This document shows, in pieces, positions 3,700 to 13,201 of a stretch of DNA of 64,000 nt. Under the pieces are notes generated by a model. The model worked only from the letters and a program-made list of their open reading frames with translations, had not been told where the DNA came from and did no database searches. The stretch's first letter is position 1. The number at the start of each line of letters is the position of its first letter. The translations under genes were made by a program, and so were the position numbers. Origin of the DNA: Syncephalis fuscata. Taxonomy: Eukaryota > Zoopagomycota > Zoopagomycetes > Zoopagales > Piptocephalidaceae. The DNA lies in contig JAHLTZ010000009.1 of the NCBI GenBank assembly GCA_025786725.1, forward strand, positions 620,001-684,000, written 5' to 3'.

Positions 3700-5035
3700 A
3701 TGCCGTTTATTAATTATAGCGATCTAAAGCAAACCGAGTGGAAACATGATGCTACAAAGCAATGGGGTATTCCGCTTAATCCACTTGGTGAAATGAGTGT
3801 ACTTGATTTCTTGATGCAAGTCACAGGACATATCAATGAACAACGCATTCGTTTAATGGGCATACAAATTCAAATTGTATTTGCTGTTACAATGATATAT
3901 GTTTTTTCACAAAATATTTATATAGCTGCCAAAATGGCTATGTCGAGACCGCATAGAATGCTTTCATGGTGCTGTTCAATACTTGCTGTTTCTGGTGCTA
4001 TATATAACATAATGTTTATATGTATGCTGACGGGCCATGGCCTTAATTGTAGAATGCTGATATGGTCGGCCGGTGTTTTTAATTCGATAGCAATGGTTTG
4101 CAATAGCCTGATTCTTCTTTTAAAAGTCAATTTGGTTCTTTATTATAAAAAGTGAATTACTTACATCGGTATTCTTCTTGTATTGCCACAGCTAAGCTAT
4201 AGTGGTATTGCGATATACTACAGCTTTGCTTCTTTCAATACCAAATTCGGCTGCGAGGTCTATTATCCACCTATTTTACTTTGGTACTGGCTTGGCGTAA
4301 ATACACCAATCAACATGTTCTTTTCAGCCATTTTCTGTCGTATTGCTTTTAAGCAATACCGTCTATTTGGGTCTGACGCATGGAAACGGCTAGCACGAGA
4401 TGGAATACAGGCGATGTGTCTAGCTATATTAGCCAATCTTGTTTGCTGTGCTGTTATAATTACTAGTTTCGGCAATACTAATCTTGATATACTTTTTCCT
4501 GTTGATTGGTAAGCATCGATAATTAATTATACACATATAACTAAGCTATTTGTAGGATGCTTGTTGCAACTATATTGATTAGACATTGTCAGAGGATGGG
4601 AAACAACGATAATTCTGCATATCGTCCTAAAACAAGTCATATGATTAATTTATCGCAAATCGTCACAGCAAAATAAATAAGTTGATGCATTGGCATGGCA
4701 CATCTATATAGCTTTCTATAATGCAGCTTTTATAATAAGTAATATATCAAAGCAGCCTGATATTACTTTATTAAGTATTGCAACTGCCTATTCATTTATA
4801 GAGCATTTATACAATATACCACACTTTAATATTAATATTGTGATATTGCTATAGCACAGTATTACTCCTAATGTTAAAATTCGATCAATTATTACTTTAT
4901 TTAGCTTCCAATTACTGCCAGATTTGAATGATGTGCGGCCCTGCAGCAGGGATCGGCATATGGTCATTTGAGCGCGTCATGCGCCCACACGGGTTGTTAT
5001 GTATGAAGCACAAAACTTGTAATGGCTTTTGCTGA
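3533..5035 (+). repeat. Repeat block B, copy 1 (contains 7TM copy 2)
   Basis: A ~1.5 kb segment found again in inverted orientation at 29,810-31,312. The match covers upstream sequence, both exons and the intron of the 7TM gene, and ~350 bp downstream up to the word CTTGTAATGG. By eye only scattered substitutions and a few indels separate the copies, so the duplication is recent. Confidence 0.8.
3700..4676 (+). pseudogene. 7TM family protein, copy 2 (single nonsense codon)
   Basis: Begins MPFINYSDLKQTEW. Exon 1 is 3,700-4,508, exactly 809 nt as in the intact copy. The intron starts GTAAGC at 4,509 and ends TTTGTAG at 4,555; exon 2 is 4,556-4,676, giving a 309-residue product if the stop is ignored. 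The only lesion is a TGA at 4,153-4,155 where the inverted twin at 30.2-31.1 kb reads TGG (Trp), at the start of the fourth membrane segment. A substitution is not a typical homopolymer error, so this looks like a real nonsense mutation or a young pseudogene. A TTG or internal restart is possible but unlikely. Confidence 0.75.
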
Positions 5036-9401: not shown

Positions 9402-12400
9402 ATGGATCACCACGGAGAACAGAGACGAGGACGTAAGTAGCAGCTTATCGCGATATTAAGCCCAGATACCTGGCTATTGTTTGCAACCAAATTGACAATT
9501 ATTTTAACATACTGGTGCAGATGTTGGTCGTAACGCGCATCGTGAAGATCAGCGACGATCTCACCACGCTAAACCTTATGATCGACGCGGCGGTGGCGGT
9601 GGACGTGCAGGTGGAGGTAAACCACATGAATCGCAACAAGAAGAGAGCGCCGAACAGCGTATATCGTCGTTTCTTATAAGAGTCGGTGATAAGGTCGGTA
9701 TCAGTTTGTACAGATGGTATTTAAATTGACAACCTGTACGACATTTAGGTAAATCAAACGTTTAAAGATAGTATGGAAGCATTGGCCAAAATTGTCGATC
9801 GTGAATATCGTCAACACTCGGAATTGATTCTTAAAACAATGCGGGCCTGGTAAATTTGATGATTATAATATGTGGTGTTTATATTGATTATCTACACATT
9901 TGATAGTATTACCGAATTGCCCATGAAATCGGGTATATATGCCACATTTGTTGGTGTTATTAACCGACGATCACCAGATACAGCTGAATTATTTGTACGT
10001 ATGGCGGCCGATGCTTTACAACAAGCATTAAATCGAGCCAATTGGCGTCAAGTGAAAATACTGGTAAATATAACTGTAATATATATATATATATAATTAA
10101 CTTAAATCTACTATACTAGCTTCGTTTTTTTAGTGAATTATTCAATGCTAATGTGATTTCAAATTCGGAATATACAAAGCTTTTGCGTTGTTTTACCACC
10201 GTATTTGAAGAGCCACAACTACGACGTGTAAGTGTAGTATAATATGGGTATAATAATAATAATAATAATAATAATGTTTATAATAATATATAGGATCGTG
10301 CTGATTGTATTGCCTATATACTTATGGATACTTTAGTATATGTACGTTTAACAATTCTATTCTTTCAATTCATACTAATATCTGTTGATTGACAATTACA
10401 GTCAGCATTGGAATTTAAAAAACGCGCATCCACTGAATTAGATGGTGTACTTTCAGTCTTAGAGGTTTATATTCGGGCTCGTCAACAACAACCAGCCCAT
10501 ACCGATATGTTAAAAGTATTCCAAGGACCTGCTGCACCATATCCACAAGAAGAGGTAAAGAATAAACGTATAAGTAATATAATGATTAACTAATAATTTG
10601 ATAGACCATCTTATTGCTATGGCAACAACTAACACAATTACGGGAAGATAATTGGGAACTGCCTATGCTTCCCAAAGTATACACTATAATGGAGGATTTA
10701 TTAGTAAATAACCGCCAGGTAAATAATAATCTATATCAATTATATTCGACACTGTTATTAAAACTATTTAGCACTCTTTACCGGCTATTAAAATACCAGA
10801 TGATAACTTGAATGTAGTATATCCTATATCTAATCTAGTCTTTCGTCTTTTTGCCGATGATCAGGTATATAAACTGAGGTTATAGCAATATTGTTGATAT
10901 GTTAATCATTATACATTTCTAGTCGGCCGCTTTACCTATTTCTATGCCATCTGGTACAGCCATTGCTCGTCACGTATTACGAGACATTATTGTAGATTTG
11001 CTTGAATTATACGAAGTGAATCGAAAGGAATGTCTCAAGTATTTGGTTAGTCTACGAGAATACTTCCAACCGGCCACCTTCTATATTCCTACTCCAGCAA
11101 AGGAAGGAGGTGCTGAAGGAGATGAAGATACAACTATGCCAGAGATTACATCTGACGTAGGTGGATGGCGTTTAGATGCTATTATTATTGAAGTAAGTGT
11201 TTGTAATAAAGAAATAGATTAATACAAATAACATAACAATATATTAACTATTGTATTATTAATTAGATAGTATTGGGTAAATTGTTTGAATTACCAGCAC
11301 CAGAACAAAAACTCGTGTATTACGGTGTTATTTTAATGGAAATGTGTAAGGTTGTTCCGGATACTTTTCCTTTAGTCATATCCTTTTAATGATTATATAT
11401 ATATACCATTATTATTATTACTAAATAGTAATAACAGGTTTAATAGCTTAACTTAATTTATGTACTTTGGACGTGCCATTAGTTTATTATTCGACAGTGT
11501 TGAACAAATGGACGTTGGTTGTATGTATCGATTATGCGACTTTTTCGTACATCATCTAAGTAATTTTGCATTTCATTGGAATTGGTCGGAATGGTAAGTA
11601 GATAGAAGTGTAGATTAACTACAGTATGTATAGCTTATTATGTATTATGTTAATAGGTCATCGGTATTACAGTTGGATAGAACAAATCCTAAGCGTGTAT
11701 TTGTCCGAGAAACACTTAATAAAACAATCCAGTAAGTATTTACAACTATATAATATAATCTAGTCTACTTACACTGGTTTATAGACTATCCTACTACGAT
11801 CGTATTAAGACAAATTTGCCCGAAGAGATGCTTGTTATGATTCCACCAGTAACACCAGGTCCTCGATTCCGGTTTGGTGGACAGGCTGCTGCCAAAGCGA
11901 GTAAGTCAACTTTTGCCCATCATAGTTATGCTAGTTATTACTTTAAGCTAATTATAGATATTAATAGATCCAGAGCAAGTAGCATTAGCCAATGCACTAT
12001 TAGACAAATTGAGAACACGATCTGAACTTAGCGAGGTTCGTGCGCTCTTGAACGAATTTGTAATTGGTAGTGGAGCGGAAGATGGTGGTGAAGATGCTAA
12101 CGGCGCTACTGTGGATGAAGAACGACAACGACTGGCCCGTGAAGTGCTCTTCCAATGTGTACTATTGATGGGCAGTAAAAGCTTTAGTCATATGATGAAC
12201 ATTACAGAACGGTAATTTAGCTTATTAAGCCATGCTGTATACTGATTATAGTACTTTGTAGCTGTCTTCCTTTATTGAAAGAATACTCGGCCGAAAGTGA
12301 ATCTAAACTTCAAGTAATACGCATTGCTGAAGCATTCTGGTTTGAAAACACTCAGGTTGGCTACTATTAATCCATTAGCTATAATGTATATATTAATCAT

Positions 12401-13201
12401 AGTTTTAAATCTTTTAAAACAGTTTTTTGGAATTATTATGGATCGATTCCTTATTTATCGATTAGTAGATCCCATCAGTGTAGTACAATGGCTATTTGAC
12501 GATAAACATATGCCACACTTTGATCGATTCCACTACTGGGTGATAATGCATCGCATGCTATCCAAGGTGGTTAGTAAAGTGCAGGATACACAGAAGAAAT
12601 TGATTCAAGCTCGAGAGGCACACATTACAAATGAATCACGTCGCATGGTAGATGGTAGGTTGTGATGTATGATAAAGTATGTATACAGTATAGGGTAACT
12701 ATTAAACCAATAGTCATGGATGAAGAATTAGAACAACAGCGCATGGAGAAAGAAGCCATTGCTCAGTTGGAATCTACATACGATGCAGTCACTCGTGAAC
12801 AGAAAGAAGTATTTCTTAGTCTATTCCAGGTAAATTGTTTATTAATAGTTGCTAATAAGAATGCTGATTAATAGTTTAATTAATTGTAGAGCTTCTCAAG
12901 AGTTATTACACTTAAGTTGGCTGAATTTGATCAGCAAGGTGTTGACGCCAACACACAGCCATGGTGTTACTGGACTATGGGATGGATGCGTGATTTTGGA
13001 CGCTACGTAAGTGGTTTACGTATTTTAATAGAAATATACTAATTTATCACTTGTATTTAGTACTACAAGCTAGTAGAGCCTTTAGTACCAACACTTTCAA
13101 GCATTGTATTCACCAGTGAAACAGATCCACGTGTCAACCATATATTTGAACAAATATGTCAATTGATAAATGACCGACGAGAACCACTTCAGCTACAATA
13201 A
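9402..13201 (+). CDS. NCBP1: Nuclear cap-binding protein subunit 1 (CBP80), 20 exons
   Basis: Large subunit of the nuclear cap-binding complex, which binds capped RNA-polymerase-II transcripts with CBP20 and acts in splicing, export and decay. Twenty exons can be chained in frame: 9402-9432, 9521-9693, 9749-9849, 9907-10063, 10120-10227, 10294-10341, 10402-10554, 10605-10718, 10772-10864, 10923-11192, 11267-11377, 11466-11593, 11657-11731, 11785-11900, 11968-12211, 12262-12355, 12423-12654, 12714-12829, 12890-13006, 13061-13201. They sum to 2,622 nt, 873 residues, close to family length. An Arg/Gly/His-rich start (about 1-45) precedes the MIF4G-like domain (RVGDKVNQTF, ITELPMKSGIYATFVGVIN, LRFFSELFNANVIS). 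Middle and C-terminal MIF4G-like regions follow (VHHLSNFAFHWNW, SYYDRIK, FFGIIMDRFLIYRLVDP, QLINDRREPL). Eighteen introns are GT-AG. The second has a weak GTCGGT donor, and the eleventh is AT-AC (separate entry). No frameshift is needed. Confidence 0.93.
11378..11465 (+). other. Probable U12-type AT-AC intron in the CBP80 gene
   Basis: No GT-AG pair can join exons 11 and 12: the frame upstream of TTTGGACG has stops and no AG. The sequence instead has ATATCCTTTT immediately after GTC (11,378), which is the U12 AT-AC donor consensus. It has CTTAACTT at 11,447-11,454, matching the U12 branch site core, and ends GTAC at 11,465, about 14 nt past the branch A. Removing these 88 bp keeps the frame and gives a gap-free match to the family (FPLV then FGRAISLLFDSVEQM). 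This was read directly from sequence; splicing itself is unproven. Confidence 0.85.

Follow-up and report, generated by a model that had tools for sequence, protein, structure and literature searches.

The CBP80 gene of Syncephalis fuscata, a fungus placed by the NCBI taxonomy in the Zoopagomycota, Zoopagales, and Piptocephalidaceae, raises the question of how its exons 11 and 12 are joined across 88 nucleotides that begin with AT and end with AC. The gene lies within a stretch of 64,000 nucleotides, here called the window, and coordinates refer to this window unless a contig is named. On the evidence of sequence, we put the probability that positions 11378 to 11465 form a U12-type (minor) AT-AC spliceosomal intron at about 95%. 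A sequence-only reading of the window had proposed that this fungal cap-binding protein gene contains such an intron, and its proposal is borne out by splice motifs, homology, an identical public protein, snRNA candidates, a PDCD7 fragment, and similar introns elsewhere in the genome.

Intron 11 of the CBP80 gene

The gene and the elements around its eleventh intron are as follows.
9402-13201, + strand: gene for CBP80, nuclear cap-binding protein subunit 1; 20 exons, 19 introns, 873 amino acids
11267-11377, + strand: exon 11, ending ...PDTFPLV
11378-11465, + strand: probable U12-type AT-AC intron 11; 88 nt, phase 0, absent from the public protein
11378-11386, + strand: putative 5' splice site ATATCCTTT, from sequence and duplex calculation
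11447-11452, + strand: putative branch-site core CTTAAC, with the presumed branch A (11451) at a distance of 14 nt from the intron end
11464-11465, + strand: putative 3' splice site AC, from sequence
11466-11593, + strand: exon 12, beginning FGRAISLLF...

The spliced model translates as an open frame from ATG to stop, and its 873-residue product is identical at 873 of 873 amino acids to a public S. fuscata protein (P0001), so the public gene model already excises intron 11. The product matches the human CBP80 chains of the PDB and carries the Pfam domains MIF4G, MIF4G_like, and MIF4G_like_2 at residues 57-271, 335-534, and 566-830, in the order found in CBP80. The model's 20 exons are separated by 18 GT-AG introns and a single AT-AC intron, intron 11, in agreement with the earlier count of 18 other GT-AG junctions; the acceptor of intron 4, at 10119, keeps the frame. 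Two of the GT-AG introns, at 9694-9748 and 12356-12422, have unusual donors (GTCGGT and GTTGGC).

The consensus motifs of U12-type introns are RTATCCTTT at the donor and TTCCTTRAC at the branch site. At intron 11 the junction letters read GTC/ATATCCTTTTAA ... AATAGCTTAACTTAATTTATGTAC/TTT, and the donor ATATCCTTT agrees with RTATCCTTT at nine of nine positions, exactly at the intron start, compared with three to five of nine for the 18 GT-AG introns of the same gene. Given the base composition of introns, RTATCCTTT would turn up at any single fixed position with a probability of 1.6e-5. The sequence-only reading had held that both donor and branch core fit the minor-spliceosome consensus, which stands for the donor and for the intact core CTTAAC, whereas TAGCTTAAC, the full branch element, agrees with TTCCTTRAC at no more than seven of nine positions. 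One base can slide at the boundaries, and excision of 11377-11464 (CA-TA) yields the same mRNA as excision of 11378-11465 (AT-AC); the AT-AC boundaries were therefore chosen on consensus.

As had been claimed, removal of the 88 bases preserves the frame and leaves a gap-free match to the family. The alignment to human CBP80 has no gap at the junction (PLV/FGR to PQV/LAQ), and the same holds for the proteins of Dissophora, Glomus, and Kwoniella.

Candidate minor spliceosome components in the genome

The S. fuscata assembly comprises 28,950,602 bases in 299 contigs. The snRNA search to which the earlier proposal pointed was successful in part. A U11 candidate scores 47.5 bits (Rfam cut-off 39), begins AAAAAGG, and has an Sm-like element, ATAATTTTT; a U6atac candidate with AAAGGAGAGA scores 37.8 bits (cut-off 33). 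The U12 candidate, at 34.6 bits, falls below its cut-off of 53 but is full length, with GAGTAAGGA kept and an Sm-like AATATTTG. None of the three snRNAs was matched among 14 control genomes, which, with at least 11 of them bacterial or archaeal, serve only as a guard against false matches.

The component not recovered was U4atac: an Rfam search of the S. fuscata genome at E 0.001, run without a positive-control genome, returned nothing, and at E 10 it gave one match of 21 bits (E 2.78), a level at which 11 of the 14 prokaryote-type controls also match. We also searched with three patterns built from complementarity to the S. fuscata U6atac and from the layout of human U4atac. Pattern 1 hit the antisense strand of U6atac itself; pattern 2 gave one match, and pattern 3 one match compared with one for its reversed control. 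An Rfam scan of the pattern loci at E 1 identified no U4atac.

Among proteins confined to the minor spliceosome, PDCD7 (U11-59K) is represented in the genome by a C-terminal fragment. PDCD7 was among the proteins suggested for checking, and the fragment exceeds the cut-off of 27 both in the genome search (29.2 bits) and as a peptide (32.6 bits); it matches the human PDCD7 chain 8r7n_D with an E value of 0.0024. A search of the genome for CCDC84/CENATAC, run without a positive control, found none. That S. fuscata has a working minor spliceosome, as the sequence-only reading had held, remains an inference, with U4atac not recovered and the U12 candidate below its cut-off.

By analogy with animals and plants, intron 11 would be spliced in cells in the following order. 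U11 would recognize the donor ATATCCTTT, and U12 would recognize CTTAAC, from which the branch A would bulge. U4atac/U6atac, with U4atac presumed present in S. fuscata, would then join together with U5, and U6atac would take the place of U11 at the donor. The intron would leave as a lariat, with exons 11 and 12 ligated in phase 0. The sequence of the donor complements the 5' end of U11 and the AAAGGA of U6atac, and that of the branch core complements GAGTAAGGA of U12. Among 500 shuffled intron elements, the calculated duplex energy was reached by 4 for U11, 25 for U6atac, and 104 for U12, so only the U11 duplex is clearly unusual, and duplex energies alone are weak evidence.

Alternative readings and related introns

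Contig C27 has the CBP80 gene a second time (L044, C27:5500-11000), identical to the window copy at 3977 of 4005 aligned columns (99.3%) and perhaps representing the other haplotype. Near-identical or identical candidate introns likewise recur between the contig pairs C14/C267, C46/C262, C85/C229, and C161/C225. Together with the second CBP80 copy, these recurrences indicate that parts of the genome seem to have been assembled twice.

A protein from the sister species Syncephalis plumigaleata (P0002, public) is ≈69 to 71% identical to S. fuscata CBP80 and holds 10 extra residues, ISFIVCLFVY, precisely at the intron 11 junction. Translated S. fuscata intron 11 opens with ISF and closes with FMY, which suggests that the same intron is present in S. 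plumigaleata and that both of its ends were kept in the public gene model, which apparently misreads it. Residues close to the boundary of exons 4 and 5 are missing from P0002 as well, a further sign of a rough gene model, and both the insert and this gap are probably annotation errors.

Having AT-AC ends does not in itself establish the minor class, since AT-AC introns of the major class exist in human (PMC8280824), and intron 11 might thus be excised by the major (U2) spliceosome. The nine-of-nine U12 donor, CTTAAC at 14 nt from the intron end, and the minor snRNA candidates in the genome speak against this reading, which we regard as very improbable. Still further from likely is that the AT-AC ends are an accident of alignment and that a GT-AG intron with other boundaries lies here. 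The sequence-only reading went too far in stating that no GT-AG pair can join exons 11 and 12, as this is true at the homologous place but nine GT-AG joins of these exons keep the frame open. Each of them, however, costs at least 17 codons out of the 79 in exons 11 and 12, from a stretch that aligns without gaps to human and other fungal proteins, and P0001 uses none of them.

No more credible is a broken gene or an assembly error in which the 88 bases are an unspliced insertion. The C27 copy has the same element, which in intron 11 differs from that of the window copy at one substituted base and in one unit of a 3-nt repeat; the C27 copy keeps both intron signals and, with the element removed, has an open 873-amino acid frame. 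The S. plumigaleata protein has its insert at the same place. A U12-type AT-AC intron thus remains the reading that we prefer.

We regard the CBP80 AT-AC intron as real with high confidence; in kind it is ordinary, as several early-branching fungi are known to have such introns, and it is the lineage that is new. Rhizopus and Phycomyces belong to a fungal group other than that of Syncephalis. Both AT-AC and GT-AG U12 introns have been described in Rhizopus oryzae and Phycomyces blakesleeanus (PMC2846911), which resemble S. fuscata in having AT-AC U12 introns but have few U12 introns, about 4 in Rhizopus and about 20 in Phycomyces as cited in PMC10639083. Two early-diverging fungi are like S. 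fuscata in having many U12-type introns: Larue et al. (2023; PMC10639083) count 205 minor introns for Rhizophagus irregularis and 249 for Basidiobolus meristosporus, and they report all four minor snRNAs in Rhizophagus. These published cases (PMC10639083 and PMC2846911) agree with the earlier statement that U12 introns are known in some early-diverging fungi. Syncephalis is unnamed in the main text of PMC10639083, whose supplementary tables may still hold an entry, and we found no report on Syncephalis with U12 or the spliceosome in the main texts of the open-access papers searched. In plants, a U12 intron, intron 4, is conserved in CBP20 genes (PMC5932401). CBP20 is the partner subunit of CBP80 in the cap-binding complex and is encoded by a different gene, and the likeness implies no shared origin.

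With the S. fuscata intron, a lineage of the Zoopagales joins the small number of fungi in which there are signs of minor splicing. Pronounced loss of minor introns has been reconstructed in the ancestor of the Zoopagomycota (PMC10639083), and with a compact assembly of 28.95 Mb the minor introns retained in S. fuscata can be counted and this loss tested.

Candidate minor introns across the genome

A genome scan for RTATCCTTT gave an excess, with 801 occurrences on both strands compared with 547 for the reversed pattern. TATCCTTT followed after 16 to 76 nt by CTTAAC occurs 76 times, compared with 15 for the reversed pattern. Of these 76 motif pairs we read 75, as 74 loci plus the one in the window; the letters of the remaining pair (C225:1013) are identical to those of C161. 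The loci contain 79 occurrences, or 76 once identical contexts are removed, with a few duplicates left from overlapping loci. Across these 76 rows, a few duplicates included, the base preceding TATCCTTT is A in 38, G in 31, T in 4, and C in 3, and hence A or G in 69 of 76.

The distinct candidate introns number 73, and 72 after setting aside L056, which has no acceptor in range. We picked each acceptor without regard to the donor base, ranking by coding score and mildly favoring a distance of 13 nt from the branch. The resulting end pairs are AT-AC (28), AT-AG (7), GT-AG (23), and GT-AC (8), a nonrandom association (Fisher p = 1.7e-5) over 66 AT or GT introns that include the window intron and a few near-copies; the six others begin with TT or CT.

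We scanned with Pfam the 48 rejoined candidates above a coding-score floor, leaving out the window intron, its copy (L025), and the near-copy (L064). Twenty-six of them exceed the curated cut-off of a Pfam family across the join, with at least nine residues on both sides, a criterion that cannot pin down the exact acceptor and was applied without a mock-join control. By end pair these are AT-AC (11), AT-AG (2), GT-AG (10), and, as first scored, GT-AC (3):
L070: AT-AC, HECT
L075: AT-AC, SMC hinge
L019: AT-AC, WD40
L091: AT-AC, GOST_TM
L032: AT-AC, Brix
L012: AT-AC, GCP
L077: AT-AC, YL1
L081: AT-AC, syntaxin 6/10/61
L016: AT-AC, ChAPs
L040: AT-AC, RNF220
L065: AT-AC, importin-beta N
L029: AT-AG, KTI12
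L079: AT-AG, CDC45, with an insertion
L067: GT-AG, EIF3I
L068: GT-AG, NTP_transferase
L054: GT-AG, NUC153
L049: GT-AG, Vps35
L017: GT-AG, OB_NTP_bind
L069: GT-AG, La
L027: GT-AG, Trs85
L073: GT-AG, CBM_48
L023: GT-AG, M18
L086: GT-AG, Ost5
L038: first GT-AC, better as GT-AG (88.8 versus 82.9 bits)
L050: first GT-AC, better as GT-AG (162.5 versus 152.8 bits)
L087: first GT-AC, better as GT-AG (37.0 versus 29.6 bits)

That the last three score better as GT-AG shows the automatic choice of acceptor to be rough. The other 22 of the 48 have no qualifying match; among them, the match of L039 (TCP-1) spans the join but reads as misjoined, and L059 spans its family only below the cut-off, and neither was counted.

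The excess of motif pairs (76 minus 15) suggests at least some tens of minor introns and the donor excess (801 minus 547) leaves room for a few hundred, both excesses being inflated by partly duplicated contigs. CENATAC promotes splicing of AT-AN minor introns in human cells (PMC8280824). It is conceivable, though we think it unlikely, that Syncephalis has retained ancestral minor introns in large number, perhaps in the hundreds and with AT-AC ends abundant among them, and splices AT-AC introns without a recognizable CENATAC; if so, the pronounced loss in the Zoopagomycota ancestor would need revision.

The KTI12 (L029) and CDC45 (L079) loci hold candidate AT-AG minor introns, a rarer end pair. 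At L065 (C229:63583-66640), two AT-AC candidates lie on one strand at 1500 and 2579, 1.1 kb apart, the first within the importin-beta N-terminal domain, and they are possibly two minor introns of one gene.
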